A stretch of DNA of 64,000 nt from Peptococcaceae bacterium (GTDB lineage Bacteria; Bacillota; Peptococcia; Peptococcales; Peptococcaceae), in contig JAFQEO010000009.1 in the NCBI GenBank assembly GCA_017399005.1, forward strand, positions 1-64,000, given 5' to 3'. The notes under the pieces were generated by a model. That model made no database searches, was not told where the DNA came from, and saw only the letters and a list, made by a program, of their open reading frames with translations. The position numbers and the translations under genes were made by a program. Below are positions 33,341 through 50,526 of the stretch, one piece after another (positions within the stretch are counted from its first letter, which is position 1; every line of letters starts with the position of its first letter).

Positions 33341-33369
33341 TTGACATTATACTATATCCATGCTACTAT
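33341..33369 (+). promoter_or_regulatory. Promoter of the semialdehyde dehydrogenase gene
   Basis: A perfect TTGACA and TACTAT with a 17-base spacer. The leader to the start codon would be about 115 bases. This 310-base gap also holds the palindrome below. Confidence 0.7.
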
Positions 33370-33436
33370 TTACTCATAAGTTAACCAGAATATTCTTATA
33401 GAAATCATTCTGATTCATTTCTGGCTCGGCTTCACA

Positions 33437-33456
33437 TATCCATAGGCATGGATATC
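33437..33456. promoter_or_regulatory. Palindromic operator candidate
   Basis: ATATCCAT-AGGC-ATGGATAT is a perfect 8-bp inverted repeat. It lies in the leader between the promoter and the ribosome site, beside the divergent DeoR gene. Confidence 0.5.
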
Positions 33457-33491
33457 TATTATATTTCTTTTATTATAAGGAGGCAGTTATT

Positions 33492-34955
33492 ATGCAGATT
33501 TTAAAAGATTACATTAATGGTCAGTGGGTTGAAGGTACTGGCGAATTTATCGATGTTTACAATCCATCTACCGGCGAAGTTATTGCAAAAGTTCCTGTTA
33601 CAACAGAAGATAAAGTAGAAGAAGCTATCAAAGCGGCGAACGAAGCGTTCAAAACATGGAAAGAAGTTCCTCTGCAGAAACGTGTTGGCTACCTGTTCAA
33701 ACTGCGCGATGTATTAATCGAACGTAAAGAAGAACTGGCTGCTATTATCGCAACCGACCAGGCAAAAACAATTGCCGATGCTCGCGGCGAAGTTGACCGC
33801 GGTATTCAGAACACCGAAATCGCGTGCGGTCTGCCTCTGATGATGCGCGGCGATAAAATTGCCATCAACGGTGACCTGGATGGCGAAATTGTTCGTGAAC
33901 CAATCGGTGTTGTTGGCGGCTTAGCTCCGTACAACTTCCCATCCTTAATTTTCGGCTGGTTCGTTCCATTTGCTATCGGTACCGGTAACACACTGGTATA
34001 CAAAGCAAGCGAACAGTCCCCAATGTTCATGCAGGTTATCGCTCAGATTTTAGAAGATATCGGTCTCCCTGCCGGTGTATTCAACCTGATTAACGGTGAC
34101 AAACCAGTTGTAACCCAGATGCTGGAAAGCAAAGGCATCAATGCTATGGCATTTGTTGGTTCCTCTAAAGTTGGTCAGATTGTAGCAGAAGGCTGCGCAA
34201 AAACAAACAAAAAAGCTATGGTATTAGCTGGTGCAAAAAACACCATGATCGTAGCAAAAGACGCAAACCTGAAAGGGTTCGCAGACAACTTCAAAAATGC
34301 ATGCTTCGGCGCTGCCGGCCAGAGATGTATGGCTGCTGCCAACGTTGCAGTTGAAGAAGAAATCTACGATAAAGTTAAAGAAGTTATGTTAGATGTTGCC
34401 AAGAGCGTAAAAGTGGGCGATGCTCTGGATGAATCCGTATACATGGGTCCTGTTATCTCCCCTGGTGCAATTGCTCGTATCCACAACTACATTGATATTG
34501 GTCTGGAAGAAGGCTGCACACTGCTGTTAGACGGCCGCAATCCGGAACTGCCAGAGAAAAACAAAAACGGCTACTTCATCGCTCCAACCATTCTGGAAGG
34601 CGTTACTCCAGATATGCGTGTAGCAAAAGAAGAAATCTTCGGGCCTGTTGTTACTCTGATTAAAATCAAATCCTACAAAGACGGTATGCAGATTATCAAC
34701 GATTCCGAATACGGCAACGGCGGCTGCCTGTTTACCGAAAGCGCAATCGTTGCACAGGACTTCCTGCGTCACACCAACTCCGGTATGATTGGCGTTAACG
34801 TAGGCGTTCCAGCTTCCATGCCATACCTGCCATTCGGCGGTACAAAAGCTTCCCTGATGGGCGGTCAGTATAAAGCACAGATTACAGACTGCGTAGAATT
34901 CTTTACAAAACGTAAAGCATGCACCATCCGTTACTATGGTCCAAACGAAGCATAA
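33492..34955 (+). CDS. mmsA: CoA-acylating methylmalonate/malonate-semialdehyde dehydrogenase
   Basis: This NAD-dependent aldehyde dehydrogenase superfamily member oxidises a semialdehyde and captures the acyl group on CoA. The 487 residues match the MmsA subfamily: YNPSTGEVIAKVPV near the start, the NAD-binding segment FVGSSKVGQIVAEG, and the nucleophile in FGAAGQRCMAAANV, a subfamily-specific motif. The usual catalytic Glu of ordinary aldehyde dehydrogenases is replaced (VLAGAKN region), as in CoA-acylating members. Strict codon use implies high expression. It could act in propionyl-CoA, beta-alanine or inositol metabolism; DeoR control would fit the last. The ribosome site is AAGGAGG. Confidence 0.9.
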   Translation: MQILKDYINGQWVEGTGEFIDVYNPSTGEVIAKVPVTTEDKVEEAIKAANEAFKTWKEVPLQKRVGYLFKLRDVLIERKEELAAIIATDQAKTIADARGEVDRGIQNTEIACGLPLMMRGDKIAINGDLDGEIVREPIGVVGGLAPYNFPSLIFGWFVPFAIGTGNTLVYKASEQSPMFMQVIAQILEDIGLPAGVFNLINGDKPVVTQMLESKGINAMAFVGSSKVGQIVAEGCAKTNKKAMVLAGAKNTMIVAKDANLKGFADNFKNACFGAAGQRCMAAANVAVEEEIYDKVKEVMLDVAKSVKVGDALDESVYMGPVISPGAIARIHNYIDIGLEEGCTLLLDGRNPELPEKNKNGYFIAPTILEGVTPDMRVAKEEIFGPVVTLIKIKSYKDGMQIINDSEYGNGGCLFTESAIVAQDFLRHTNSGMIGVNVGVPASMPYLPFGGTKASLMGGQYKAQITDCVEFFTKRKACTIRYYGPNEA

Positions 34956-34976
34956 AACAGCTTAAAGCAAAAATTC

Positions 34977-35012
34977 AGCCTCTCCTGATTGAAAAATCAA
35001 GAGAGGCTTTTT
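34977..35012 (+). terminator. Terminator of the semialdehyde dehydrogenase gene
   Basis: AGCCTCTC/GAGAGGCT stem with an inner TGATT/AATCA stem, followed by TTTTTCTGTTT. Confidence 0.85.
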
Positions 35013-35263
35013 CTGTTTCAGTGTCCTGCCTCCCGCTCTACACATAAAGATTTCTGATACAGCAGAATATCACTATTCAGTTGCAAAGCATCTCACTTTC
35101 CGCTCAACCATTATTTTTCCCGGATTCTTGTAAAAAAAATGAGCGCATATCCTGCGCCCGCTCCCCTGTCGGTTTTTCATCCATCCTGCCAGATACAACC
35201 CCTGCCTGTCAGAATCTGTTCTTCACTGTTTCTATTTGTACCCAGATGTTTCCAATATTTTTC
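35013..35263. other. Gene-free stretch
   Basis: I see no gene, hairpin or repeat here apart from a short GAGCGCA...TGCGCCCGCTC pairing near 35141-35163. Confidence 0.4.
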
Positions 35264-35292
35264 TTTACATGTAGAACTCCACTTCGTATAAT
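35264..35292 (+). promoter_or_regulatory. Near-consensus promoter of the Rpn-like gene
   Basis: TTTACA and a perfect TATAAT with a 17-base spacer, about 85 to 95 bases upstream of the start. Confidence 0.75.
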
Positions 35293-35382
35293 AGAATTAG
35301 AACAAGTCAGCAAGGTATTCACACCACTACATCACAGCACGCCTTTTTTGACATTTCCTATTTATCATCATGGAAAGGAAGG

Positions 35383-36204
35383 ATGCACTGCTTGAAAACA
35401 TTTGAAGAACACAAACAGCGTACACAACGCATGAACCTCATCGATGACCCGTTCTTTCAGAAAATTGCCGAGAACACAGAAGCCTGTGAAGAACTCCTGC
35501 GGGTACTTTTAGACAAACCCGGCCTCACCATTGTAGAAAACCAGACACAGCGCCATCTGCGTAATCTCCACGCACGCTCTGTGATTCTGGATGTACTCTG
35601 TAAAGATGCCGACGGCAACCTTTACAACATCGAAGTACAAAAAGATGACAAAAAGAACCACACCGATATGGACAAAACCTACCAGAAGCGGGTGCGGTTC
35701 AACCTGGCTAATCTGGACACCGTATTTGCCGAGAAAGGCATATCCTTTGACCAGCTGCCCGATATCTATTCGGTATTTATCTCTGAGCTGGACCCATTTC
35801 AGAAAGGTCATACCACCTATCATATTCACAGGGCCATTATCGAGACTGCGGATGTCGTGGAAAACGGCGTACACGAGATTTATGTAAATGCCGCAACCGA
35901 TGACGGCTCCGACAACGCCGAACTGATGCAGTATTTTCTGGACAGCAACGGCTATCATCCAAAGTTTAAAAAGATTTCCCAGACGGTTTTACACTACAAA
36001 GAATCATATGAGGGAGTGAATGAAATGGCAAATGTATTTGATGAATATGCAGAAGAAAGAATCATGGAAAAAGATAAAATAACTGCTATAAATATGTTAG
36101 AAAAAAATATTTCTGTTGAAGACATCCTGGACATTATTCCTTCTTTAACAAAAGAAACAGTTCTTCTACTGCAAGAACAGTTAAAAATGCAGGCGGTTGT
36201 ATAA
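35383..36204 (+). CDS. Rpn-family / PD-(D/E)XK nuclease-like protein
   Basis: The 270 or so residues match the family annotated as Rpn recombination-promoting nucleases or 'PD-(D/E)XK nuclease family transposase'. The core is SVILDVLCKDADGNLYNIEVQ, giving the D...ExQ metal-binding pattern, followed by a Tyr-rich helix (DKTYQKRVRFNLANLD). The C-terminal half is helical and ends in the variable tail typical of the family. Two starts are possible: ATG at 35383 (ribosome site abutting) or TTG at 35392 (9 bases after GGAAGG). No inverted repeats flank it, so it is not itself a complete insertion sequence. Confidence 0.82.
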   Translation: MHCLKTFEEHKQRTQRMNLIDDPFFQKIAENTEACEELLRVLLDKPGLTIVENQTQRHLRNLHARSVILDVLCKDADGNLYNIEVQKDDKKNHTDMDKTYQKRVRFNLANLDTVFAEKGISFDQLPDIYSVFISELDPFQKGHTTYHIHRAIIETADVVENGVHEIYVNAATDDGSDNAELMQYFLDSNGYHPKFKKISQTVLHYKESYEGVNEMANVFDEYAEERIMEKDKITAINMLEKNISVEDILDIIPSLTKETVLLLQEQLKMQAVV

Positions 36205-36211
36205 ACACACA

Positions 36212-36253
36212 AAGCCCTCGGAGCAGATAGATTTTTATCTGTCCCGAGGGCTT
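36212..36253. terminator. Terminator between Rpn-like and stalk-domain genes
   Basis: AAGCCCTCGG/CCGAGGGCTT stem with an inner AGATA/TATCT stem, then TTTTT. It can serve both convergent genes. Confidence 0.8.
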
Positions 36254-36306
36254 ACTTTTTCTGCATCTTTAGAATATTACAGGGCGCAGGATTTTCATGA
36301 TTCTCC

Positions 36307-39042
36307 CTACTTTTCGATTACAATCTGGCATGTACTAGCTTCCCACTGCACTTTCGCACCAACCGCTTCTGCCACATAGCGAACCGGCACATAGGTGCGG
36401 CTGTTCAGAATCACCGGTGCAGTATCGAAGCCATCGATGGTTTTGCCTACGGTCATAGATAATTCCTTACCGTCAATATTGATTGTTACCACTTTTGTTT
36501 CCCCATTCCAGCCGGCAGTGCCGCCCAGAATTTCCGTAATAACACGAATTGGAACCATAGTGCGATTATCCACAATTACCGGAGCCACATCGTTTACGAT
36601 GGTTCTACCGTTTGCCAGAATGGTGGTATTGTCAATCTGCATAACGATACGTTCTGTCTGCTCCACAAACGCATATACTGCAAACGGAGACAGGCTGTTT
36701 ACATAATAAACCGCTTCCAGCCTTTTGCCGTCTTTGGACACCGTTACTTCGCCAAATTCCGCACCGCTTTCCGTAGTGTGAACGGCAACATACTGAACAT
36801 CCTTTCTGCCCACAAAAGCAGCCGGAATAATAAATTTCTGCGTTATAGTGCCGCTTACTCTGTCGGTTCCTTCCACAGAAATCTCCTGCGCACCGATTAC
36901 ATAAGCCTCATAGGTTTTGCCTTTTTCCAGACCGCTATGCGAATCTGCACCCGGGATAATTGTGCCGAGTTCGTTTTCATCCTGCTGCTGTCTCTCTTTC
37001 ACCCTGTCCGGAGTATATTCCTCGTCAAAGTATTCGAATAAAACCTTATTTTGAGTTAGATCAAAATCCATAATGTAACCTACATTATAACATTCACCGA
37101 CAGGTTTTCCATCCAGATAGAGAACATATCTCACATCCCCTTGCCACTCTTCTTTGTAAAGTATCTGATAAACTGCACCATTGATGCTGATAAATTCATT
37201 GTCAGGGAATGTCACATTCTCGTTTCTGCCGGTATATAACAGAGTATCGCCGTCATATCTGTAGGTATTGCCATTCTTGCCGTACAGCAACAACTCTTCT
37301 TCACCGCCGCCATAAATATAATACACAAGCCCATCAATCATTATCGTTTCATATAAAGTATGTTCCACACCGTCCGGTCCCAGAAAGGTGGCACTGCCAA
37401 AACCGTGAGGGATCACCGACACATCCGATAATTCTTCCTCAAACACTCTCGGAACCGTTTTTTCCGGTTTCAGGAAGTCAAGGTCATCCAGCTCCGGTTC
37501 ATGCGGTTCAACCACAAGTTCTGCATCCTTCGGCAGTTCGGTATCGCCATTCGGTTTAAAAGATACCCGGCCCGAATTCTGTCCAGAATCTTTATCCTCA
37601 TATACCAGTTCTGTTTTTTTCGGCTCAAAATCTCCTATGGAAGAACGCTTATTGACAGTCAGGGTATATTCTTCCGATGCGGAGCCGCCGCCCGTTGCAC
37701 CCATAGAAATGGTTACATTGTAGGTTCCGGCTTTGACCGGTGTACCAGATACCACACCAGTACTCTTATCAATGGTTAATCCATCCGGCAGCCCTGTTGC
37801 GTTCCAGAACACAACGCCGCTTACTTCACCGGAATAGCTGAAGCTCGCGCTGTATGCACTGCCCACGGTAGCCTCCGGCATAGAACCGGTGATTTCTATT
37901 TCACTGCCAGCCCAGTGATGCGTCACATTCACGGTGCAGGTGGCAGTATAGTTATCTAATATTGCTGTAAAGGTATAGGTAGCTGTTTTATTCGGCAATG
38001 TAACAGCCCAGCAGTCACCCCTAGCATCTGTTTTAGTTACGGTGATACTCGCATCATTGCAGGTTACACTCTCTGCAGGAACAGTTGTCATCAATGTAAC
38101 AGTACCGCCGCCACTCAAGGCTTCCGGGGATGCAAGAAGTCTAAATCCATCGGCAAACATAAACTTCTTCTCAGACAGGACAGTTTCTGTGCCGGCATTG
38201 GCGTAAACAGGAGTCTCTCCATTCTTATTTGAACCTATAGTATATGTCCAGACATTCGGATCATTGTCACTTCTGGTAAATTGATAATAACTGCCGATAT
38301 TGACATTATGCGCATATTTGTTTGTGGTTACTGTAACCGTTCCTCCGCCAATCAGATAAGACGGACTTACGGTAATAGTTAGTGGCACCGATGAATAGTG
38401 ACAAACACTACAGCCTTCCACCGTATCAACATTGTCGGTATGCACTTCTATTTGTTTGCCTTTATTTTCATCCGGGCAGTCCTGGGCAGTACATAACTTA
38501 TAATGACCAGCGCCATTGTCAAAGGTATAGACATTGCTATAGGTGTGTTCGTGTAGTTTATATACAACATAGATACCGTCAGAAATTGGAGCAAACCAGT
38601 CAAACCATGCCTCATTTTGCTCTCCATCACTTTCATACTTTTGCGGTTCTGCGGCAATGGTGTAAGTATCTACACATGAATAACTATCTGTCTCTGTCGC
38701 TTCATCATATTCATGGTGTAAAAAACCAGCAAACTCATATATCGCATCGCCAACGGTAATCGAAGAAGGAATGCCTTCTGTAGCACCAGAGAGTGCAATT
38801 TCCTTTGAAAAATCAGTGAGTGTCGGCATTATAATACCAGATGCTACTAAAATTTCTTCAGATAAATTTTCACGCTTTTCAAGTTCGTCAGCAGTAGTAT
38901 CCTCGACAACCATTACACGCAAAGGAACGGTTATCGGCTCTGCTTCTTCTCCATTTGCAAATACCGCGCCTGCCGGGGCAACGGTAAAAAGCATCATCAT
39001 TACTAAAAACATGGCTACTGGTTTCATATATCTCAATTTCAT
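36307..39042 (-). CDS. Exported protein with Ig-like (He_PIG) and C-terminal stalk (copper amine oxidase-like) domains
   Basis: The 911-residue secreted protein has a signal peptide (MKLRYMKPVAMFLVMMMLFT, cleaved near AFANG), an N-terminal region of unknown fold, and a putative Ig domain around residues 380-465 (TVGSAYSASFSYSG through SGTPVKAGTYNVTI). A beta-rich middle follows. The C-terminal 110 residues form a copper-amine-oxidase-like N domain (VIVDNRTMVPIRVITEILGG and SRTYVPVRYVAEAVGAKVQW), common in Clostridia and Negativicutes and thought to bind the cell surface. The ribosome site is AAAGAGGTG. It is the paralogue of the next minus-strand protein in both ends. The role is unknown; surface adhesion or sensing is inferred. 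Confidence 0.82.
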   Translation of the reverse strand: MKLRYMKPVAMFLVMMMLFTVAPAGAVFANGEEAEPITVPLRVMVVEDTTADELEKRENLSEEILVASGIIMPTLTDFSKEIALSGATEGIPSSITVGDAIYEFAGFLHHEYDEATETDSYSCVDTYTIAAEPQKYESDGEQNEAWFDWFAPISDGIYVVYKLHEHTYSNVYTFDNGAGHYKLCTAQDCPDENKGKQIEVHTDNVDTVEGCSVCHYSSVPLTITVSPSYLIGGGTVTVTTNKYAHNVNIGSYYQFTRSDNDPNVWTYTIGSNKNGETPVYANAGTETVLSEKKFMFADGFRLLASPEALSGGGTVTLMTTVPAESVTCNDASITVTKTDARGDCWAVTLPNKTATYTFTAILDNYTATCTVNVTHHWAGSEIEITGSMPEATVGSAYSASFSYSGEVSGVVFWNATGLPDGLTIDKSTGVVSGTPVKAGTYNVTISMGATGGGSASEEYTLTVNKRSSIGDFEPKKTELVYEDKDSGQNSGRVSFKPNGDTELPKDAELVVEPHEPELDDLDFLKPEKTVPRVFEEELSDVSVIPHGFGSATFLGPDGVEHTLYETIMIDGLVYYIYGGGEEELLLYGKNGNTYRYDGDTLLYTGRNENVTFPDNEFISINGAVYQILYKEEWQGDVRYVLYLDGKPVGECYNVGYIMDFDLTQNKVLFEYFDEEYTPDRVKERQQQDENELGTIIPGADSHSGLEKGKTYEAYVIGAQEISVEGTDRVSGTITQKFIIPAAFVGRKDVQYVAVHTTESGAEFGEVTVSKDGKRLEAVYYVNSLSPFAVYAFVEQTERIVMQIDNTTILANGRTIVNDVAPVIVDNRTMVPIRVITEILGGTAGWNGETKVVTINIDGKELSMTVGKTIDGFDTAPVILNSRTYVPVRYVAEAVGAKVQWEASTCQIVIEK

Positions 39043-39113
39043 AGTCTCACACCTCTTTCTGCTGATATGTATGCCCTCTCAGTCAGGCATAAACCTGACC
39101 GAGAGGAATATGT

Positions 39114-39235
39114 GGGCGTAGGATTTTTTTGTCGAGAGCTAGGCGGCTTTCAGATTTTCGAGCGACGCGTACTTTAAGGTACGCAAGGCGAGAAAATCTG
39201 AAAACAACGACGCTATCGGCAAAAAAGACAAGCCC
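39114..39235. repeat. Structured repeat element D (copy 2 of family shared with 22.4 kb)
   Basis: Same architecture as 22345-22468: apical GCGTAC/GTACGC (39167/39179), internal loop GAGCGAC/AAGGCGA, stem TTTCAGATTTTC/GAAAATCTGAAA (39148-39159/39192-39203), second loop AGGCGGC/ACAACG, outer stem TTGTCGAgAGC/GCTaTCGGCAA and a T7/A6 pair. Stems differ from the other copy by paired changes, while loops are identical. It ends 2 bases before the stop codon of the papain-like gene and lies upstream of its stalk-domain paralogue. Confidence 0.88.
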
Positions 39236-39237
39236 TG

Positions 39238-41754
39238 CTACTTCTCAATCACAATCTGCTGAGTCTCTGCAATCCACTCAACCTTCGCGCCTAATTTTTC
39301 AGCAATATAGCGAATCGGCACATAGGTGCGGTTATCGATGATTGTTGCACCGGTGCCGTAGCCCGGAATTTCCTCATCAATCACCAGTGTCAGTACCTTG
39401 CCATCAATGGTTAAGGTAACAGTTCTGGTTTCCGCATTCCAGTCGGCTTTGCCGCCTAAGAGTTCGGTTACAATACGCACCGGAACCAGAGTACGGTCAT
39501 CTACAATAACCGGAGCCACATCGTTGGTAATAGTTTTATTGTTTACTACAATATTTTTATTGTTAATCTGCATTACGATGCGTAAATCGATGGTAAAGGT
39601 TTCACTTGTTACGGAAGTACTGATTGTATCATCTTTTTCAATTTCCACACCATTGGCAGCTGCAATGGCTTTCACATTGCCTTTGCCCGAGCCGGTGATG
39701 GTATATACTACATAGCCGCTGCTGCCGTTCTGAGCGGTTACCTGCATGGTGAAATCACCGTTGTTGTTTTTAATTTCTGCAGTGCCGCTGTTTGTGCTGA
39801 GTGTTACCGCAGAAGCATTTTTCACTGTTGCGGAGGAAATCTTATTGCCATCCACTAAAGCCAGTCTGCCGGTCGGATTATCGATTGTGATATCATCCGC
39901 TTTATCCAGAACTGCAATTGCAGAAACCGAATCGCTGGCCTTATTCACTTTTACCTGACCGCCCGATACGGTTGGAGAAGCAGTTGCACCAGCAATATAG
40001 TATATCCTTCCTGGCGGGAACTCTCTGTCACTCACGTATGCATCTGCATCCTCTGAATAGAAATATACGATTTCACGAGCCGCAGGGATTGGATCACCTT
40101 CCGGCATAAAATCTGCATATCGGTCAATCATTGTGGAAGATGCATCCGCCTTCATCGCTTCATACGCCACCACATATTCTGTGTTGCCGCCGGAGAAGGA
40201 ATAAGTGTTTCCACTGGTATCGCCCTGCATTGTAATGGTTCCTGTTGGCGGCTTAACGGTACACTGGCCATTTTTATCAATGACTACATCAATGAATACC
40301 GGTTCACCATCGATTTTAGTGTTTCCGCCATTTCCTTCCCAGAAATATTTGTGATAACGGTTGTCATAGCCTCTCAGCGTATAGCTGCCATCGGCATGTT
40401 TTTCACCGCCGTCCAGCACGATTGCATGACCGTACTGTACCGTATTTGTTCCATTATAGTTAAAGAAATAGCTGAACATATAGCGTTCGCCGTTTACCAC
40501 ATTTTCCGCCATTGCCTGAATCATGTCGTTGCCGTCACCATACTGCATACTTCGCATAGCCGGTACAAACTGAGTCAGATAATAATAGTTCAGTAACGAG
40601 CGAACATCTTTATCGTTGTCCTGTGCCGGTGCCGGAACCGCTTCCAGCGTTTTTTCCTTGTGATACGCTCTGATATTCAGCTTATCCAGATTTGCCAGCA
40701 CTTCTACCGATGCATATCCATAGCAGGAGCCGCCCCAGCTGCTGTTTTCCTGCACTTTTACATTGTTCAGAGTGCCAATCCAACTGTTTGGATACAGCTC
40801 TTTTAACGCAGCTTCAAAGTCATCACTATATTTTCCCATGTTGTAATTACGAGGTTCTCCCGAAGCAAAGAAATCATCTGTGCTGTTGTTGAAGGAGAAG
40901 TATTCCCATTCATCTTCGTCCTGTTCTATAACCGGCGGGGTATACGAACTTACGGAAGAACCGCCGCTGCGGTATGGGGTAGCCAGAATGGTACAGGTCT
41001 TAGAGATACTATAACCACCGGTTTCATTACCCAGCAGGACGATAACGCTCAGATAACCGTCTGTGCCATTACGGTTAGACGATGTACCTGCAACGGCTTC
41101 CTGAAAACCTGTATGCTCTCCATTACCCTCAGTTAGCGGGGTAACGGTAATCGGGTTCCTGTCATTCCCAAGTTTTTCTACCAGTTCCATATATCCATCC
41201 AAGCCTGGAAGCCATTCATCCTTAATCCAGTTAGCCACTGCCTCTGGAGTATTGGCCTTAGTCATTGAAACTTCGCAGGTTGCACCTTGAATCAGTTCAT
41301 CCAGTTTCATATCCGCTGGTGAATCGTTCACTGTAATAGAAACGTCGATAGAACCGGTATAAGTATTGCCATCATTACCCGTAGCTGTAGCAGTAATGGT
41401 AACTTCTACTGCACCATTGGTCATAGCATCAGGCGCACCTTGAAGAAATGCTTCCCCAGCCCCTCTATTCTCGTTCACTTCCAGCTCGACCCCGTTTGGA
41501 AGAGTGCCGGAGCAAGACCACTCAATATTTGTAAATGTAACACTTGATGTAGTAGTCAGTTTATAATATCCTTCATTGATGCCACTGTTATCAAAGAATG
41601 TAACACCTTTTTCCATGGTTACATCCTGATTGCCGATTACACACGCATTAATGGTCTGTGTATCGTCCCCAAATGCCATTCCCACCGGCATCAGTGTAAA
41701 CAGCATCATAATTACTAAAAACATTGCTAAAGGTTTTCTATATCTCGATTTCAT
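39238..41754 (-). CDS. Exported papain-like cysteine peptidase candidate with C-terminal stalk domain
   Basis: The 838-residue secreted protein has a signal peptide (MKSRYRKPLAMFLVIMMLFT) nearly identical to that of the previous protein. A beta-rich N-terminal region is followed by a papain/C1-like domain: the nucleophile candidate C344 in SSWGGSCYGYA, H443 in YGHAIVLDGG and the D464-N465 pair in RGYDNRYHKY, in the family order Cys-His-Asn/Asp. The C-terminal 110 residues are a copper-amine-oxidase-like stalk domain (DDRTLVPVRIVTELLGG, NRTYVPIRYIAEKLGAKVEW). I start it at 41754, 9 bases after AGGAGG; an ATG 9 bases earlier abuts that site. Peptidase activity is inferred from motifs; transglutaminase-like or inactive forms are possible. 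Confidence 0.78.
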   Translation of the reverse strand: MKSRYRKPLAMFLVIMMLFTLMPVGMAFGDDTQTINACVIGNQDVTMEKGVTFFDNSGINEGYYKLTTTSSVTFTNIEWSCSGTLPNGVELEVNENRGAGEAFLQGAPDAMTNGAVEVTITATATGNDGNTYTGSIDVSITVNDSPADMKLDELIQGATCEVSMTKANTPEAVANWIKDEWLPGLDGYMELVEKLGNDRNPITVTPLTEGNGEHTGFQEAVAGTSSNRNGTDGYLSVIVLLGNETGGYSISKTCTILATPYRSGGSSVSSYTPPVIEQDEDEWEYFSFNNSTDDFFASGEPRNYNMGKYSDDFEAALKELYPNSWIGTLNNVKVQENSSWGGSCYGYASVEVLANLDKLNIRAYHKEKTLEAVPAPAQDNDKDVRSLLNYYYLTQFVPAMRSMQYGDGNDMIQAMAENVVNGERYMFSYFFNYNGTNTVQYGHAIVLDGGEKHADGSYTLRGYDNRYHKYFWEGNGGNTKIDGEPVFIDVVIDKNGQCTVKPPTGTITMQGDTSGNTYSFSGGNTEYVVAYEAMKADASSTMIDRYADFMPEGDPIPAAREIVYFYSEDADAYVSDREFPPGRIYYIAGATASPTVSGGQVKVNKASDSVSAIAVLDKADDITIDNPTGRLALVDGNKISSATVKNASAVTLSTNSGTAEIKNNNGDFTMQVTAQNGSSGYVVYTITGSGKGNVKAIAAANGVEIEKDDTISTSVTSETFTIDLRIVMQINNKNIVVNNKTITNDVAPVIVDDRTLVPVRIVTELLGGKADWNAETRTVTLTIDGKVLTLVIDEEIPGYGTGATIIDNRTYVPIRYIAEKLGAKVEWIAETQQIVIEK

Positions 41755-41806
41755 AAACTCCATCCTCCTTTATCCTTGTCTATTCCTGTTGTTTATCCAG
41801 ATTGCC

Positions 41807-42196
41807 TCATGCATACAGTGCGGTATCGGTGAGGCAGTGTTCCAGTGCTTCTGTAATTTTTTCTGCGGTAACGGGCATCTGCTGAAACATATTGCAGTGC
41901 AGCCGGTAACTTGCCACGGCAAAACCGGCATCGTCGGAACACCACAGAAGCGGGGTTTCCGGTGCCAGCTCTCTGGCGCTGATAACGGTTTCCATTCCCC
42001 GCGCACCCGGCAGCATAATGGCTATGAAGTCCCACAGAGAATCGCGCTGCAATGCATCCAGAAATGCTGCAATGTCATGATGATAGCCCGCTTTGATAAG
42101 TACATCCCGGTTTTTACAGAACCGGCTGATTCCCTGCTCCACTTCCGGAACATCGGCGCCGGAACAGCAAACCGCCATGCGTAGCATCATAGTCAT
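41807..42196 (-). CDS. Stand-alone degenerate receiver (pseudo-REC) protein
   Basis: The 129 residues align with the receiver domain of the divergent LytTR response regulator 160 bases away. IMLPGARGMET matches IYMDGTDGMET, and FAVASY matches HAVASY. Phosphorylation residues are lost: the acceptor Asp57 is Ala59 here, the Lys105-Pro pair is Met107-Pro, and the acidic pair E7-D8 is Cys11-Ser12; only the Thr/Ser position (S87) is kept. No DNA-binding domain follows. It starts at 42196 or 42190 after AAGGAGTGA, upstream of the papain-like gene. A role as partner or decoy of the neighbouring system is inferred. Confidence 0.72.
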   Translation of the reverse strand: MTMMLRMAVCCSGADVPEVEQGISRFCKNRDVLIKAGYHHDIAAFLDALQRDSLWDFIAIMLPGARGMETVISARELAPETPLLWCSDDAGFAVASYRLHCNMFQQMPVTAEKITEALEHCLTDTALYA

Positions 42197-42355
42197 TCAC
42201 TCCTTCCATCGTTGTTACTTACACAATAACAGAAAGAGCGGCTGGAAAAAAGTATCTACGACTGAAAGACAGATTTCCTTACCGAAAAGCATTTTTTCTT
42301 TCACAGGTTTCCTGCTATAATAAAATTGGATAATTATGAGGTGGTGTAGATTATT

Positions 42356-43084
42356 ATGAAAATTGCAATTGTTGAAGATCATCCGGAGGAGCAGCGTCAT
42401 CTGCATGCTATGCTGGAACAGTACTGCGCTGCACGAAATGTGGCGGCAGATATTCAGTGTTTTGCATCGGGCGATGCTTTGCTGGCAGTATTTGAACCGG
42501 GCCGGTTTGAATGCATTTTTCTGGATATTTATATGGATGGCACTGACGGCATGGAGACCGCCCGCCGTATTTACCGGCTGGACCCTGCCTGCCGCCTGAT
42601 TTTTGCCACAGTCAGTATTGAACATGCAGTAGCCAGTTATGAGGTGCGGGCTGCGTGGTATTTAACCAAACCATTCAGTGCGGCACGGCTGGCGGAGGCT
42701 ATGGATGCAGCCTGTCAGAATCTTGTGCAGAGCAGCCGCGTGATGACGCTGCATGTACAGGGTACCGAGCTGCACATCCGCTTTGGAGATATTTATTATA
42801 TCGACTGCCACAACCGGCAGGCTCGTGTGCATCTGCGGGAACGCACGCTGGCAGTGGATGAGCCTGTAAATGATTTGCTGGCTCGAATTGCGGCCGATGA
42901 ACGGTTTCTGCAGTGTAACCGCAACACCTCTGTAAATATGGAGCATATTGATTTAGTGACAGAACACGATTTTCAGATGCAAAACGGTATTCTGGTTCCC
43001 ATTCGCCAGCGGGGCCGGGCGGTTATCAAAAAGCATTATCTGGCATGGTCGCTTCGGGAGTTACGACAGGGGGCACGGTTATGA
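42356..43084 (+). CDS. LytTR-family response regulator
   Basis: The 242 residues form a receiver domain (E7-D8, phosphoacceptor D57 in FLDIYMDG, T85, K105-P106) and a C-terminal LytTR DNA-binding domain from about residue 128 (IRFGDIYYIDCHNRQARVHL then DERFLQCNRNTSVNMEHI). LytTR regulators bind tandem 9-bp direct repeats and often control secreted or surface functions. A TATAAT at 42316 has no good -35 box, which may mean activator-dependent expression. The last codon's stop overlaps the start of the next gene (ATGA), so the set is translationally coupled. Confidence 0.93.
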   Translation: MKIAIVEDHPEEQRHLHAMLEQYCAARNVAADIQCFASGDALLAVFEPGRFECIFLDIYMDGTDGMETARRIYRLDPACRLIFATVSIEHAVASYEVRAAWYLTKPFSAARLAEAMDAACQNLVQSSRVMTLHVQGTELHIRFGDIYYIDCHNRQARVHLRERTLAVDEPVNDLLARIAADERFLQCNRNTSVNMEHIDLVTEHDFQMQNGILVPIRQRGRAVIKKHYLAWSLRELRQGARL

Positions 43085-45078
43085 AACAGCATCACGCACG
43101 CAGCATCGCTTTTGTACTTACGGTTCTGCTGCCGTTTTATCTGACAGCAGCTCCGGCATCGGCACTGACATTTCCGGGCTCTGGCGGCAGCAGTGGCCCG
43201 GTTTATTTATGCGGCGCAGCAGACGATATTGATAAAAAAATTATCGTACTGGAAGCCGGGGAACCGGTCAGCACCCATTTTTCAAAAATCCCTGCGAATG
43301 GCGAGGCATGGATTTATTTTGCCACCAACGGTTCTATGCAGATGGTACCGGTTTACTGGCAGACAGACGACCCTGCTCTTCTGGGACCGGGGCTGCATGT
43401 TATGAACGCACAGGCCACGACCAGTTCCTCCATTCTGCTGGCAGAAGGTTACGATGGTATCGTTACCTGGCCGGTATTCCGCAAAGGCGATAATGCGGTA
43501 CTGCAGCTGCAATCGCTTCAGACTCCGGGAATCCGCAATCGGCTTATAGCGGAAGGGTGTGACACCTCCAGTCTGCATGAAACACTGCAGCTGACAGAAC
43601 ATGTCACAGAATGTAAAGTCAGCGATTACTGGCTGCTGGATACAAAAAACGACCCTGCCTTCCGCTGGGTATGGGATACCTCCGCAGTAGATTCCGGCCG
43701 TATGGGTTATCAGCCTGTTACAGCCACACTGGAACATCCTGACTGGGTTGCCGTACCGGAAGAGTACTGCCGCTTTTCAGAAGCTGTATTTGTAATGCCC
43801 GATAACCGTATTGAGCTTTGGGCACCAGTCAGCGTAGATTTAAACGGCAAACTGACCTTCCGCTGGCTCTATGATGCGCAGAATGTAACCGGTGCAGCTC
43901 TGCAATGGAAAACATTGGACACGGCTTATCAGCCCTGTGATGAGAACTGGTATACATTTATCAGCGCAAACAGTGCATCCAGCGGCTCTCTTCTGCTGAA
44001 TCTGCGCAAACTGCCGGTAAATAACCCGCTGACCTTTCAGTTGAGCTATTATGATACTATTGACGGTGTTACCACACAGCACTTCACCGAACCGGTTACC
44101 ATCACGGTACCGGAAAATCTGGATGAACTGCTGCGTAAAAACATCACCGTGATTCTCGATGAACTCACCGGTGACCGGGACGGCGGCGACAGAGACGAAA
44201 CCACCCTGCCCGACTATTCGCAGCCTGCACCGGTAACACCGCCGGAAGAAAGCGAAGATAATAATAAAGATGACATCGAGGATGAAGATGCTGACAACAA
44301 AAATAATAGTACCGAAAGTTCCGGCAATTCTGGCCGTTTCGATAATTCCGACAATACGGCATTTCTGCCGGTACAGGAAACAGTGACTGATACCTGTACC
44401 GAAATTAGTGGCAAGCGGCTGACACTGTTAATCAGCCTGGGTGATTCAGTTCTTTTTGAAAAACAGGGCATATCGGCAGAAATTCCATCAGCTTTGTTAG
44501 AACATCTGGCACTGACGGAAAATCAGCTGCTAAAAGTAACACTGCTTCACCCTGATGTTAATACCGTACAGATTTCTGTTCTGGCCGACGGACAGCATGT
44601 AAACGATTTAACCGGAACCGTTATCACTATGCCGTGGAAATTATCCGGCAATGATGATAACACTGTTTTTTTCTGCAGCGACCATACAGGAAAAATTATG
44701 AGCCCCGCTGTATACGATGCACAGCACGGTATTATCCGCTTTGCCATAAATGCACCGGGCACCTGGCATATTATAGAACAGCCAGTGACAGCAGCAACGG
44801 AAACCGGAACCGATAATACTTCGGTAGCAGAAACCCTACCGAATGATGAAAAGGAAAGTATCGATAATACAGACAGCAATGCACTGGCAGATATTCCGGA
44901 GAAAACTCTGGATATTCAACCGGAAAATACTTCAGACAATAACCTGATGGACGAAACGGATGTATCTGCCATAACAGATACATCTGACACTAAAAAGATT
45001 GCGGTGCTGATTCCGGTTGTAATTCTGGCTCTGGCAGGAGGCGCAGTTCTTCTTTTCGCAGGGAGGTGGCGCCGTTGA
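43081..45078 (+). CDS. Single-pass surface protein encoded between response regulator and kinase
   Basis: The 665-residue protein has a signal peptide (MKQHHARSIAFVLTVLLPFY, cleaved near ASA), about 350 residues of beta-rich ectodomain, an Asp/Asn/Glu-rich linker near residues 365-430, a second compact domain around 435-580, an acidic tail and a C-terminal transmembrane helix (IAVLIPVVILALAGGAVLLF) with a short basic cytoplasmic end (AGRWRR). No catalytic motif or family is recognised. The start ATG overlaps the regulator stop by 4 bases, and its own stop overlaps the kinase TTG. This suggests it works with the two-component system, as receptor, co-sensor or output. Confidence 0.8.
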   Translation: MKQHHARSIAFVLTVLLPFYLTAAPASALTFPGSGGSSGPVYLCGAADDIDKKIIVLEAGEPVSTHFSKIPANGEAWIYFATNGSMQMVPVYWQTDDPALLGPGLHVMNAQATTSSSILLAEGYDGIVTWPVFRKGDNAVLQLQSLQTPGIRNRLIAEGCDTSSLHETLQLTEHVTECKVSDYWLLDTKNDPAFRWVWDTSAVDSGRMGYQPVTATLEHPDWVAVPEEYCRFSEAVFVMPDNRIELWAPVSVDLNGKLTFRWLYDAQNVTGAALQWKTLDTAYQPCDENWYTFISANSASSGSLLLNLRKLPVNNPLTFQLSYYDTIDGVTTQHFTEPVTITVPENLDELLRKNITVILDELTGDRDGGDRDETTLPDYSQPAPVTPPEESEDNNKDDIEDEDADNKNNSTESSGNSGRFDNSDNTAFLPVQETVTDTCTEISGKRLTLLISLGDSVLFEKQGISAEIPSALLEHLALTENQLLKVTLLHPDVNTVQISVLADGQHVNDLTGTVITMPWKLSGNDDNTVFFCSDHTGKIMSPAVYDAQHGIIRFAINAPGTWHIIEQPVTAATETGTDNTSVAETLPNDEKESIDNTDSNALADIPEKTLDIQPENTSDNNLMDETDVSAITDTSDTKKIAVLIPVVILALAGGAVLLFAGRWRR

Positions 45079-47012
45079 GTAAACGAAACGGGCTTTTCGC
45101 TGTTTTACTCACCATTCTTTGTGTATCCCTGTTCTGTGCCGCACTTTACCAGTGGGATAATAAATATACAAAGAATACATTGCAGCCGGTAAATGGTGTA
45201 TTTTACTACGAAGATACCGAATTGGTCAGCTGGCTTACACGGCAGTGGACAGTGTATCCCGATGTACTTTTGACACCGGAGACGCTTTCCAGTTACACCG
45301 GCTACCGCTATTATGAGGATATCGGCAGTCAAGAACAGCGTGGCCGTCACAGTATGACCTACCGGCTCACGCTGATACTTCCCGAAGAAACCGGCGATTA
45401 TGCACTGGAACTGCCGGAAGTATTCTCTGCCTGCGCTCTTTATATAAATGACCGGATGGTGCTGCAGCAGGGAAATCCGGAACCGAAAAACTATCGTGAA
45501 GCAATTTCCAGCCGGATAGTTGCCTTTTCTGCATCAGGTAAAACCGAGCTGCTGCTGGCCGTCAGCGATTATTCGGGCAGAAATATCGGCCTCACTTATC
45601 CGCCTGCTTTCGGCAATGCCGAGGATCTATTAGCCATGCGGGAACTGCGTACCGCTCTGCATCTGGGACTTGTAATACTGGCTCTTGCCGGTGCCCTTTT
45701 ATCATTCAGTTTTCTGTTTACCATGTATAAAGAGCGTGGTATTTTAACGGGGCTTTTATGTGTCTGTCTGGCTGTTGTCACCGGATATCCTCTGTATCAC
45801 GGGCTGATAAAAACCACCGTGCAGCCGTGGTATACCATAGAACCCATGTGCTATTACGGACTCCTGCTTCTTTCTGTTGTGCTGTATACCAGTCTGTGTG
45901 AAATAAATCGTAAGCGCCAGTATATACTGGCGGCACTCAGTGCTGCCGGCGCGGTGCTGTTATGCATCGCTCTTGCCAGTGCTTCGGCCCTTCCAGAATG
46001 GACACAGACGGCTGTTTCCTGGTTTTCCGCCTTTTTGAAATACAGCTGTGCCACTCTCCTGCTTCTGCTTTCCTTGCGCTGTTTCTGGCTCCAGAAATTG
46101 CAGACGGAAACAAGTACGGCTTCTAAAAACAGCCTGATACTGCTCTGCGGTGCAGCGGCGCTGGCCACCACCCTGCTGTGGGACCGGCTTCTTCCCCTTT
46201 ATGAACCGGTTTATGGAGGCTGGTTTGGCGAAATCGGCGGCGGTTTTTTAGTATTATCGCTGACAGCAGTAATCCTTCTGGATGCGCGAAAAGCATACCA
46301 TTTCCGGCTCATTTACGAAAACAATATGCAGCAGATGGAATATCGCCTGGCTATGCAGAAAGAGCATTATCAGCAGCTGTCTCATCAGGTACGGCTGGCA
46401 AGAGAAGCCGGCCACGACCTGCGCCATCATATCCGTACCATGCGCAGTCTGGCGGAACAGAACCAGTGGGAACGGCTTCAGCATTACCTGAATGAGTACG
46501 AACCTCATGTAAAAGAACGACAGCTGACAATCTGGTCCGACCATCCGGCGGCAGATGCGGTTCTTGGATATTATGCACCGGCAGCACAGAAATGCAATGC
46601 GGTATATGATGTTCGTCTTGCCATTTCACCTGACCTGGCAATTCCCGACGATGAACTATGCATCATTCTCGGCAATCTTCTGGAAAACGCCATCGATGCC
46701 GTCCAGTCACAGACATCCGGCGCAAGGCGCATTTATCTTCGCGGTGAAGTCTCCGGAGGGCGACTCGGCATTGTAATGGACAATACCTTTTCCGGCACCG
46801 TGCAGCAGAACAGCGGCATATTTACGTCAACAAAACATAACGGCTGCGGTCTGGGACTGACCTCTATTATTACAATTGCTGAAAAATACGGTGGTCTGGC
46901 AGATTTTTCAGCCTCTGGCGGTATTTTTCACGCCTCCATTCTGATTCCGCTCTCCTCTATTTCCGGACAGACAGAAAAGCAGAAAAAACTGGAAATGCAA
47001 AAAATTCAATAA
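45075..47012 (+). CDS. 7TMR-DISM-like sensor histidine kinase
   Basis: The 645 residues include a first transmembrane helix, an extracellular jelly-roll-like sensor domain (about 35-190, with LPEVFSACALYINDRMVLQ), some seven membrane helices (about 195-400), then a HisKA-like helix with the candidate phospho-acceptor H447 in AGHDLRHH and a HATPase domain (N538 in NLLENAIDAV, the G-box CGLGLTSI). This layout fits 7TMR-DISM kinases that pair with LytTR regulators. Translation probably starts at TTG 45075, 8 bases after GGGAGG, overlapping the previous stop; a GTG at 45066 would lie in the ribosome site. Confidence 0.88.
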   Translation: MSKRNGLFAVLLTILCVSLFCAALYQWDNKYTKNTLQPVNGVFYYEDTELVSWLTRQWTVYPDVLLTPETLSSYTGYRYYEDIGSQEQRGRHSMTYRLTLILPEETGDYALELPEVFSACALYINDRMVLQQGNPEPKNYREAISSRIVAFSASGKTELLLAVSDYSGRNIGLTYPPAFGNAEDLLAMRELRTALHLGLVILALAGALLSFSFLFTMYKERGILTGLLCVCLAVVTGYPLYHGLIKTTVQPWYTIEPMCYYGLLLLSVVLYTSLCEINRKRQYILAALSAAGAVLLCIALASASALPEWTQTAVSWFSAFLKYSCATLLLLLSLRCFWLQKLQTETSTASKNSLILLCGAAALATTLLWDRLLPLYEPVYGGWFGEIGGGFLVLSLTAVILLDARKAYHFRLIYENNMQQMEYRLAMQKEHYQQLSHQVRLAREAGHDLRHHIRTMRSLAEQNQWERLQHYLNEYEPHVKERQLTIWSDHPAADAVLGYYAPAAQKCNAVYDVRLAISPDLAIPDDELCIILGNLLENAIDAVQSQTSGARRIYLRGEVSGGRLGIVMDNTFSGTVQQNSGIFTSTKHNGCGLGLTSIITIAEKYGGLADFSASGGIFHASILIPLSSISGQTEKQKKLEMQKIQ

Positions 47013-47019
47013 AAAAACT

Positions 47020-47048
47020 GCCCTTCCCGAAGTAATACCGGGAAGGGC
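47020..47048 (+). terminator. Terminator of the two-component operon
   Basis: GCCCTTCCCG/CGGGAAGGGC stem directly after the kinase stop codon. The T tract is short. Confidence 0.65.
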
Positions 47049-47128
47049 TTTGTATTGCAGTAATACCCCTTTCACATCTGACACCCCTATTTGATTCTAC
47101 AAACGCTTATATTATATATATTATTATA

Positions 47129-47185
47129 AAAACATGTTTTAAAACATTATAAAACATAGATAAACCTTAAAAACATAATAAACAT
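47129..47185. repeat. AT-rich cluster of AAAACAT direct repeats
   Basis: Five copies of (A/T)AAACAT in 57 bases (47129, 47141, 47151, 47170, 47179), in the same direction with spacing 9 to 19. They lie in the 579-base gap upstream of a replication-initiator-like gene, which invites comparison with iterons. The AT-rich composition makes chance a real alternative. Confidence 0.4.
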
Positions 47186-47215
47186 TGGACGGCCTCTCCG
47201 TCAGCTCTGCGACCT

Positions 47216-47350
47216 GACACCTCTCCCAAAGGGCGAGGTGTCTCCTCATTTGTACTACCAGACATTGTGGTTCGGCCAAGAAGTCCGCACCAGCTCGGTC
47301 CCTGCACCTTGCAATTATGCCTTGTAGGGGCGGATGACCTTCATCCGCCC
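47216..47350. repeat. Dispersed GC-rich hairpin repeats
   Basis: Two inverted repeats, GACACCTC/GAGGTGTC (47216-47242) and GGGCGGATGA/TCATCCGCCC (47328-47350). They are of the kind scattered in intergenic and mobile regions of many gut Bacillota. The remainder of the gap to 47591 is AT-rich without recognised features. Confidence 0.5.
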
Positions 47351-47591
47351 GTTAATGATTGCTGAGAGGGCTGCGAGACGCAAGAGCATAATTTTCTTTA
47401 TTTTAATGATAAATTTTCTTTAGTCAAAGCAGGACTTCCAGCATTTCAGGCAGGACTTTCAACATATCGGTTCCTTTTTTCGACAAATTGTAAAAATAAA
47501 TTACAAAAAACAATATTTGACAAATTTCATTTCCAGTTTTATATTGTGCTGGAAGGAACTTCTATGCAGGATGAGAAAGGAGAGATACGTT

Positions 47592-48509
47592 ATGACAGCA
47601 GCCACTATTTACAGAGATTTTAACCGTTCCGCCATTGCCAGCAATCTGAGCGGCCGTCAGATGCAGCTCTGGCTCAAATTATACGAGTTTCTGCACAGTT
47701 ACCGCCGTCAGGATGTGCAGCTGTATACTCCAATGCTGCTGAATATGCTGAACATCAGCCTCAGCCAGTTCCGCCGTGCACGGCAGGGGCTGATTGAGGC
47801 AGGGTTTCTCTCCATCCGGCAGGATAGCCAGCAGCACACCAGTTATACATTGCTGTTAAACGGCAGGGCCATTTCGTTTGTGCCGGAAAAACAATGCGGT
47901 GAAGAAGCGGCACAGAAAAATGCGCCGGTTTGCGGGATGGGAAACCCGTCCCCTACGGGTACCAGAACCGCATATACACCGGAAAATCCTGGGATGGCAA
48001 ACCCGTCCCCTATGGGTACCAGAACCGTATATGCACCAGAAAATCGTGAGACGACAAACCTTTCCCCTGCCGCAGGGGCGGGGTCGCCCCGCCCGTTTGC
48101 ACAGGCAGAATGTTCCCGTTCGCAGTATCCATCTGGCGATATTATGTTAAACGGCGGGTATCAGGCAGATTTGCAAGAGTTTTTCCGCAGTTTTCCGGAT
48201 ACTGCCCTGTCGGGCTGGCTGCAGCAGTGGGCAGATATGCGCCGTAAAAACGGCTGGACACTAACCCGCTGGGGGCTTACCGCCCTGCTGGACAAGCTCC
48301 AGTCGCTTTCTGGCGGCAATCTGCAAACCATGGCAGCCATTGTGAAGCAATCGGTATCCCGGCGATGGAAAGGTTTTTATCCGTTAAAGGCCGAGCGCAA
48401 ACCAAGCGGCGAAAAGCTGCTCCGTATGGAACAGCAGCAGCGCAGCCGCCAGCCAATACACCAGAAGTTTAAACCGGAACAGCGGGATTTATTGTTTTTA
48501 GAGCGCTAA
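47592..48509 (+). CDS. Phage/plasmid-type replication initiator-like (DnaD-like) protein
   Basis: The 305 residues start at 47592 after AAAGGAGAGA. The N-terminal 100 form a winged helix (LKLYEFLHSYRRQDVQLYTP then LNMLNISLSQFRRARQGLIE) as in phage replisome organisers. A low-complexity linker contains two and a half tandem 19-residue units (GMGNPSPTGTRTAYTPENP type). The C-terminal domain ends SRRWKGFYPLK, typical of DnaD-like and phage replication proteins. No primase, helicase or integrase is nearby, so it is probably a relic or a domesticated copy. Function is inferred from the fold. Confidence 0.65.
   Translation: MTAATIYRDFNRSAIASNLSGRQMQLWLKLYEFLHSYRRQDVQLYTPMLLNMLNISLSQFRRARQGLIEAGFLSIRQDSQQHTSYTLLLNGRAISFVPEKQCGEEAAQKNAPVCGMGNPSPTGTRTAYTPENPGMANPSPMGTRTVYAPENRETTNLSPAAGAGSPRPFAQAECSRSQYPSGDIMLNGGYQADLQEFFRSFPDTALSGWLQQWADMRRKNGWTLTRWGLTALLDKLQSLSGGNLQTMAAIVKQSVSRRWKGFYPLKAERKPSGEKLLRMEQQQRSRQPIHQKFKPEQRDLLFLER
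47934..48103 (+). repeat. In-frame tandem repeat of 57 bp with GC-rich hairpin
   Basis: Two full units (47934-47990, 47991-48047) and a diverged partial unit. The third unit runs into GGGGCGGGG-TCG-CCCCGCCC, an intergenic-type hairpin that is here translated as part of the linker. Confidence 0.8.
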
Positions 48510-48572
48510 ACCGCATTTAAAAAAGGACCCGATGTTTATCGAGTCCTCCAACGCTATTATTCACAGATTAGA

Positions 48573-48803
48573 TTATTTGCTTTCAGCCAGTTCTTCTGTG
48601 ATATCCAGGAATTTATTCATAATCGGTACACAGGTAGCCGCAAAAACACCGCCTGCAATTAGTGCAGTCTGTGGTTTTTTCTTGCGGGTTGTTAGCACCC
48701 CCACCAGCACACCCAGTGCCATAGAACAAACCTGTAACAGAGTTAAATCCAGCAGGTTGGTGCGTTCAGTATACGCCATTGTGCCTTTCCATAATTTCAT
48801 CAT
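48573..48803 (-). CDS. Small membrane protein downstream of murI
   Basis: This 76-residue protein starts at 48803 after AAAGGAGCG, 19 bases past the murI stop codon. It has two hydrophobic segments, LLQVCSMALGVLVGVLT and ALIAGGVFAATCVPIMNKF, joined by TRKKKPQT, giving a hairpin-like membrane topology with a positive loop. I do not recognise a family. It is the last gene of the long operon that runs from the yhbY region, and probably not essential to MurI. Confidence 0.65.
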   Translation of the reverse strand: MMKLWKGTMAYTERTNLLDLTLLQVCSMALGVLVGVLTTRKKKPQTALIAGGVFAATCVPIMNKFLDITEELAESK

Positions 48804-48822
48804 TGCATTCGCTCCTTTCGGA

Positions 48823-49599
48823 TTAATAGGTCAGCATATCATCCAGCCGTTTCAGCAGCGCTTCATAAGATGGCCGCAGATGTTCTGCCGAACGGCTGGA
48901 AGTATAATAGTTTACATTACCGCTGCCAGTTTCTAAAAGCCCCTTCTGTTCCAGCACATGATACAGATTATTTACCGTACCGCTGCTGCCATCCAGCATG
49001 GTAATCTCTTCCGGCAGAATTTTATGAAAGCTGTCTTTAAAATAATTGAAGTGGGTGCATCCCAGCACTACGGTACAGTACCGTTCCAGATTATATGGCG
49101 CCAGTACATCGCGCAGATATGCCTCTGCCTGTCCGTCATTAAAACTGCTGGATTCGGCAAATTCCACAAGCTTTGGCAGCGGCAGCAAATCCACCTGATG
49201 GTTCTGATCCACCTGGTGCAGCAGATTTTTCAGTTTTTCCTCCCGAATGGTAACCGGTGTGGCTGTCACCAGAATCCGCTTGGTACAGCGAGTATCTGAA
49301 ACAGCCGGTTTTACTGCCGGTTCCATACCCAGAATCGGAAAACTGTAGCGGGCACGTAAATCTTTAATTGCCACACTGGTAGCCGTATTGCAGGCAACCA
49401 CCAGAGCTTTTACATCCTGCTCGGCAATAAAATCCACTGCCTCCTGCACATACTGACGAATCTGATATTTGGTTTTTCTGCCATAGGGAACATGATCGGT
49501 ATCCGCATAATACAGGTAATCTTCCTGCGGCATTTTTCGCATTGCCTGATGCAGCACAGTCAATCCACCGATACCCGAATCAAAAAATGCAATCTTCAT
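48823..49599 (-). CDS. murI: Glutamate racemase
   Basis: MurI makes D-glutamate for peptidoglycan. The 258 residues are the usual length, with DSGIGGLTV near residues 7-15, the first catalytic Cys in VVACNTATS and the second in VLGCTHFNYF, plus the DTDHVPYG segment. The ribosome site is GGAAGTGA. It lies 72 bases after a methyltransferase gene and before a small membrane-protein gene. Confidence 0.96.
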   Translation of the reverse strand: MKIAFFDSGIGGLTVLHQAMRKMPQEDYLYYADTDHVPYGRKTKYQIRQYVQEAVDFIAEQDVKALVVACNTATSVAIKDLRARYSFPILGMEPAVKPAVSDTRCTKRILVTATPVTIREEKLKNLLHQVDQNHQVDLLPLPKLVEFAESSSFNDGQAEAYLRDVLAPYNLERYCTVVLGCTHFNYFKDSFHKILPEEITMLDGSSGTVNNLYHVLEQKGLLETGSGNVNYYTSSRSAEHLRPSYEALLKRLDDMLTY

Positions 49600-49671
49600 T
49601 GCGTCACTTCCACTTCAACTAAATCTTACAGAATCGAATCTTCCATCGTCTATACATGTTTAATAGTCATC

Positions 49672-50526
49672 TTAAAAATCGTCATCAAAGAAATAATCAT
49701 TTTCGTCAGCAAAGTCCGGCAAATCCGCCAGCTCTTCATCAGACCAGTCATCTGCGCCGTCATACAGCATCGGCTTTGCCACAAACACAGCTCTGTGAGC
49801 CTCCGGCTGCAGTTTTTCATCCGATAATTCCCCGTACACGCCGATTAGTTCAAAGTCACTGTATTTCAGCCACATTTGCAGTAATTCCAGGTCATAGACC
49901 CGTTCTTCCTGACACATGGTTTCCCGCTGGTATAAACCGTTTTCCTGCCGGACAAAGAATGTAATATCCATAGTGCATATCTGACTTTCCTCATCAAAAT
50001 GATTTTCCCAGATATACTCGATATCATCCCGATGCAGGGTAAAAATATGATTGCCCAGATACTCCTGCAGCTTATACGGTGTCTGCACATCAAACAGCAG
50101 TATCCCTTCATCGGCCAGAAACGGATTCAGCGAATGAAACAGCATCTGTAAATCTTCCGGGCTGGTTAAATGATTAAACACATCAAATGTGGCAATAATG
50201 GCATCGAATACCGGCTCTGCACCGGCATCATCCAGCAGCTGCAGCTCGGTTAAATCCTGCTGCTGCCAGTCGATTACAAGCCCTGCCGCTTCACTTTTGC
50301 TGCGGGCAATGTCCAGCATTTCTGCTGATAAATCCACACCTGTTACCTGATAGCCTTTCTGTGCCAGCGGAATTGAAATATTTCCGGTTCCGCACCCCAA
50401 ATCCAGCAGCCGCTTTCCAGGGCAGCCGTTTTTCTGCAGCATAGTATCAATGTAATCGGCCCACTCCTGATAATTCACATCATCCATCAGCGCATCATAC
50501 ATTTTCGCCAGAGTTTCATAAGCCAT
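49672..50526 (-). CDS. Class I SAM-dependent methyltransferase (YqeM-like)
   Basis: The 284-residue protein has the SAM-binding motif LLDLGCGTGNISIPLA and follow-on VTGVDLSAEML, and it follows rsfS by 14 bases, the position of Bacillus YqeM. Its methylation substrate is unknown. The start is placed at 50526, a few bases after AGGTGAG; a GTG 9 bases earlier is possible. The C-terminus is strongly acidic (DWSDEELADLPDFADEN onward). Confidence 0.88.
   Translation of the reverse strand: MAYETLAKMYDALMDDVNYQEWADYIDTMLQKNGCPGKRLLDLGCGTGNISIPLAQKGYQVTGVDLSAEMLDIARSKSEAAGLVIDWQQQDLTELQLLDDAGAEPVFDAIIATFDVFNHLTSPEDLQMLFHSLNPFLADEGILLFDVQTPYKLQEYLGNHIFTLHRDDIEYIWENHFDEESQICTMDITFFVRQENGLYQRETMCQEERVYDLELLQMWLKYSDFELIGVYGELSDEKLQPEAHRAVFVAKPMLYDGADDWSDEELADLPDFADENDYFFDDDF

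Follow-up and report, generated by a model that had tools for sequence, protein, structure and literature searches.

RgsP of Sinorhizobium is a 7TMR-DISM receptor (PF07695) that works together with a membrane-anchored exported partner, RgsM (PMC6107284), and the two-component system QseG-QseE includes an accessory exported protein, QseG, which is an outer-membrane lipoprotein (PMC12691602). In the LytTR Regulatory Systems, such as HdrRM and BrsRM of Streptococcus mutans, a regulator of the LytTR family is linked to a membrane protein (PMC6193735), and bacterial pseudo-receivers are defined by homology to receiver domains together with the absence of at least one of the five active-site residues (PMC12632262). 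The locus described here resembles each of these in part. It lies in a 64,000-nucleotide stretch of DNA from a Peptococcaceae bacterium (GenBank assembly GCA_017399005.1, contig JAFQEO010000009.1, positions 1 to 64,000), to which we refer as the window.

Six ORFs form two divergent groups, P3-P2-P1 on the minus strand and P4-P5-P6 on the plus strand, and the ORF list places all six where the first-pass annotation had located them. The plus-strand genes, here called the core operon (42356-47012), are joined by the two 4-base overlaps that had been claimed for them: ATGA at 43081-43084 between P4 and P5, and TTGA at 45075-45078 between P5 and P6. The latter overlap assumes that P6 begins at TTG 45075, which is likely to be its start rather than GTG 45066 because of a Shine-Dalgarno sequence, GGAGGT. 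An intergenic region of 159 bp (42197-42355) separates the two groups and carries the sequence TATAAT on the plus strand near 42318. No Rfam family was matched anywhere in the window, and PADLOC gave no match for P1, P2, P3, P5, P6 or the neighbouring Rpn-type gene.

Both of the features by which a GHKL histidine kinase is recognized, the domain itself (HATPase_c_5, PF14501, E 4e-14) and a phospho-acceptor histidine motif (HDLRHH, at residue 450 if counted from GTG 45066 and 447 from the TTG start), are present in the predicted sequence of P6 (45075-47012, plus strand), which also has the motif NLLENA at 537. Its hydrophobic segments amount to 1+7 spans, and the structural model (pLDDT 57.7) consists of a beta-sandwich followed by seven helices, with a best Z of about 15 to the seven-helix domains of GPCRs and with WLS and TMEM87A among the top Foldseek matches. 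The layout of the 7TMR-DISM receptors, for which RgsP is an example (PMC6107284), with an N-terminal span, a beta-rich ectodomain, seven spans and a cytoplasmic output, is thereby seen in P6 as well, partly as judged from the model, and the ectodomain of P6 is similar, at about E 1e-10, to those of PF07695 proteins. The earlier description of P6 as a 7TMR-DISM kinase agrees with the span layout and the ectodomain match, but not with the family profile; P6 differs from these receptors in having no match to PF07695 at values up to E 10, and in that its output is a GHKL kinase. A single-sequence query with P6 by peptide patterns or tblastn detected no close relative in the genome contig collection.

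P5 (43081-45078, plus strand) is an exported surface protein of 665 aa with a signal peptide and one C-terminal span. It would occupy beside P6 the position that the membrane-anchored exported RgsM occupies beside RgsP, but it has no Pfam match above cut-off and hence, compared with RgsM, no sign of a metallopeptidase (PMC6107284). P5 might likewise resemble QseG in that an exported third component would act on the kinase; it differs from QseG in being a single-span protein whose gene lies between those for the regulator and the kinase (PMC12691602). Such a position for a large exported gene is unusual, since the kinase lies directly downstream in 26 of 44 other regulators. Two species of the genus (L095, L097) do, however, have genes for small exported proteins between or beside those for a LytTR regulator and its kinase. 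Relatives of P5 itself were found neither in 21 genomes of the order nor in 398 genomes of the phylum, nor, by peptide pattern or tblastn, in plasmids.

The sensor half of P6, when compared with the same 398 genomes, has one strong relative (37% identity, E 1e-50), which is encoded on contig WREE01000018.1 of a MAG (G151) labelled as Symbiobacteriaceae. At this distant locus a regulator is followed by a 769-aa exported single-span protein, with an ATGA overlap, and then by the P6-type kinase, while the divergent gene opposite the regulator encodes an exported protein of 2,626 aa that contains a Calx-beta domain. Within the set compared, the catalytic halves of the two kinases are each other's best match; P4 has its closest match, by a narrow margin, in the distant regulator (88.7 vs 87.7 bits), although this pair is not a reciprocal best match. 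Neither a stalk domain nor a papain-like protein nor a pseudo-receiver was found in the 16 kb fetched there. A second relative of P6, in Pseudoflavonifractor sp. Marseille-P3106 (L150, 10001-11200), is a decayed remnant adjoining tRNA-Thr, with a broken frame and most of the seven-span region gone. A third match, in Clostridium zeae (L151), was rejected as a P6-type operon and proved to be an ordinary PF07695 hybrid kinase.

The first-pass annotation had proposed that all six genes form one surface-sensing module, and had named as the outcome that would speak against it a related genome with the two-component operon and without the other three genes. The distant locus is such a case, as it keeps the operon without a group of the P1-P3 type, and the six genes are therefore not conserved as one module. 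The coupling of kinase and surface protein that had also been proposed fares better, in that the order of regulator, exported protein and P6-type kinase recurs in so distant a genome. The three-gene core P4-P5-P6 thus looks like a real unit, its conservation resting on the two intact loci known, those of the window and of the distant MAG. What survives of the larger proposal is this core plus some large exported protein opposite the regulator, the secreted neighbours being exchangeable. That the kinase senses what the papain-like enzyme produces, and that the pseudo-receiver tunes the response, had been suggested as well and is conjecture.

The two surface proteins show no alignment with each other (BLASTP E 0.16) beyond a short motif, GDRDGxDR, which in P5 reads GDRDGGDR (44170-44193, plus strand) and in the distant protein GDRDGSDR. 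Each of them combines this motif with a signal peptide, a linker and one C-terminal span. In the pair TGDRDGGDR/GGDRDGSDR, 7 of 9 positions are identical, a score equalled by 44 of 1000 shuffles, and these two are the only occurrences of GDRDGxDR in 1.28 Mb of fetched non-viral loci read in six frames; the window carries one match and its shuffles none. Since the motif was picked after both proteins had been seen, we treat it only as a suggestive link between them. In viral contigs the corresponding DNA pattern had 47 matches, 4 of them in frame and none adjoining a regulator or kinase.

P4 (42356-43084, plus strand) has a receiver domain (PF00072, 62.5 bits) and a LytTR domain (PF04397, 35.1 bits), both above the Pfam cut-offs, in agreement with its earlier identification as a LytTR regulator. 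An alignment shows its active-site residues to be intact, with Ala-Thr around the T position. LytTR regulators usually have 9-bp direct repeats near the promoters that they control, although such repeats do not define every member of the family. Tandem repeats of this kind had been predicted upstream of 41754, 42196 and 39042, and none above chance was found in 42197-42355, where the best free pair was no better than in shuffled sequences (P 0.35) and a scan with the LytTR consensus gave P 0.99 against shuffles. The 9-bp direct repeats described for HdrRM and BrsRM were not found at this locus, which resembles those systems in that a LytTR regulator is apparently co-transcribed with a membrane protein, and differs from them in that the regulator has a receiver plus a kinase (PMC6193735). 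A LytTR Regulatory System consists of a regulator without a kinase and a membrane inhibitor, and here the kinase P6 is part of the operon. Regulation by P4 across the divergent region is nevertheless plausible.

P3 (41807-42196, minus strand), the first gene of the minus group, encodes a true receiver homologue, which matches a receiver encoded in the same genome at E 7e-7 and the Pfam receiver family at only E 0.17. In the alignment the DD, D and K of the active site are replaced by C/S, A and M, so that P3 is, under the published definition and as had been supposed, an aspartate-less pseudo-receiver; like other bacterial pseudo-receivers that lack these residues it keeps Ser at the T position, Pro at D+4 and Gly at D+8, and it differs from them in being a stand-alone protein with no output domain, encoded opposite a LytTR regulator (PMC12632262). 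At another locus (L092, 6118-6951) the gene for a LytTR regulator is separated from those for two large exported proteins by one that encodes a protein of 277 aa, half of which resembles a receiver (PF00072 below cut-off).

The reading that we favour, with about an even chance of being right, is that P4, P5 and P6 constitute a three-part signalling unit that drives exchangeable exported genes opposite, with feedback through P3, in a strain-specific insertion. P5, anchored by its single span at the C-terminus, would form a joint receptor with the beta-sandwich ectodomain of P6; P6 would phosphorylate P4, as the intact residues in both proteins suggest; and P4, at the 159-bp divergent region, would control its own operon together with the exported-protein genes opposite. 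These opposite genes might be regarded as exchangeable cargo, represented here by P3, P2 and P1 and at the distant locus by the 2,626-aa Calx-beta protein. P3 probably gives feedback that damps the divergent promoter, by serving P4 or P6 as a decoy or as a partner in dimerisation, which is the step of which we are least confident, and the whole block may have arrived as, or grown inside, a strain-specific insertion. If this were true, the locus would offer a compact example, in bacteria, of a seven-span receptor whose surface co-receptor is dedicated to it and encoded next to it, and its output promoter would be portable, serving different adhesin- or enzyme-like proteins across hosts. A broader version, which we put forward tentatively, would see here a mobile family of three-component receptors, in which a fast-diverging tethered co-receptor, bearing GDRDGxDR and with its gene between those for the regulator and the kinase, would pass its signal to a seven-span, beta-sandwich GHKL kinase in control of any large exported protein encoded opposite, the pseudo-receiver having been added in this genome as feedback.

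The setting of the locus also lends itself to a different explanation, namely that a variable insertion site took up the two-component operon and the stalk-domain group on separate occasions, the two being functionally unrelated. In G007, the genome of a close relative, a gap of 205 bp separates the end of the ALDH gene, at 3576, from the point at which the sequence preceding a racemase gene resumes, at 3782, and the corresponding points in the window are 34955 on the ALDH side and 48573 on the racemase side. The intervening 13.6 kb (34956-48572) hold an Rpn-type gene, P1 to P6 and a replication-O-like gene, the first and last of these being flanking genes of a mobile type. The ALDH-racemase site is variable, since besides the short gap in G007 there is a different gene after ALDH, before the contig end, in G008, and a rearranged junction in G010. 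Because the P2 core is absent throughout the class (46 genomes) and P5 is absent from the order, the comparison favours a gain of the block in the window's genome over a loss in G007. The G+C content is 0.43-0.46 in the minus group vs 0.49-0.52 in most of the plus group, which, together with the absence of P1 to P3 from the distant locus, is what separate arrivals might produce. Against an accidental neighbourhood stands the recurrence of a divergent large exported protein at the distant locus, as well as the surroundings of other LytTR regulators of the order. Several of the fetched LytTR loci lie opposite or beside large exported adhesin-like proteins with stalk, LRR, InlB-repeat, lipase or lectin domains, and a head-to-head exported partner was counted for 3 of 12 LytTR regulators as compared with 3 of 98 other genes (Fisher P 0.017), by a crude signal-peptide rule that misses some loci, including the distant locus itself. 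We regard the accidental neighbourhood as possible, though somewhat unlikely.

P1 (36307-39042, minus strand, 911 aa) and P2 (39238-41763, minus strand, 841 aa) are exported proteins, the former with a He_PIG Ig-like domain, and both end in Cu_amine_oxidN1 stalk domains (E 9e-26 and 8e-25) that are 59% identical to each other, as expected of the stalk-domain paralogues reported initially. Elsewhere in the same genome there are stalk domains that share 73% and 67% identity with the one in P2, and the stalk is therefore a shared module that is not specific to the locus. The papain-like nature ascribed to P2 is plausible: Cys347, His446 and Asp467 occur in papain order, as a residue pattern, but no papain family of Pfam was matched, a sequence search of the PDB gave no match, and the structural model (pLDDT 42) matched staphopain C weakly (Foldseek E 0.2, Z 4.3, 86 residues, rmsd 3.6), in a tie with unrelated folds. 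Peptide patterns and tblastn revealed no close relatives of P2 among viral contigs, plasmids and phages. The DNA pattern for WGGSCYG in 8 viral contigs was rejected, as no ORF of at least 60 aa had the motif in frame.

Were P2 an active surface cysteine protease, it might cut P5 or some substrate and thereby release a product that activates P6. The papain-like residue order and the presence of staphopain among the top structural matches point in this direction, whereas the low confidence of the P2 model, the want of any family or PDB sequence match and the existence of the core without P2 at the distant locus make such a proteolytic relay improbable. Quorum sensing of the AgrC/AgrA kind, with a secreted peptide sensed by the kinase and the exported proteins as targets, is more improbable still, because the PF14501 domain with HDLRHH and a weak similarity of the regulator to the AgrA model (E 1.5e-8, far below cut-off) are set against a sensor with a large ectodomain and 1+7 spans instead of a short polytopic one, and against the lack of a peptide precursor, AgrB or exporter gene among the ORFs of at least 80 aa in 33000-50500.

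A few further observations concern the surroundings of these genes. The Rpn/PDDEXK-type gene (35383-36204; see also L050, 3236-4186) adjoins P1, and a stalk paralogue in contig C37 likewise adjoins a gene of the Transposase_31 type. The replication-O-like gene, together with its upstream flank (47063-48507), is found again elsewhere in this genome and in that of a sister species, with copies at L049 (5389-6763) and L094 (9427-10417), each near a LytTR operon. Between P2 and P1 lies an imperfect palindrome of ~100 bp (39125-39226), and since related sequence occurs at window position 22388 and also in L096 and L103, it is probably a dispersed repeat.
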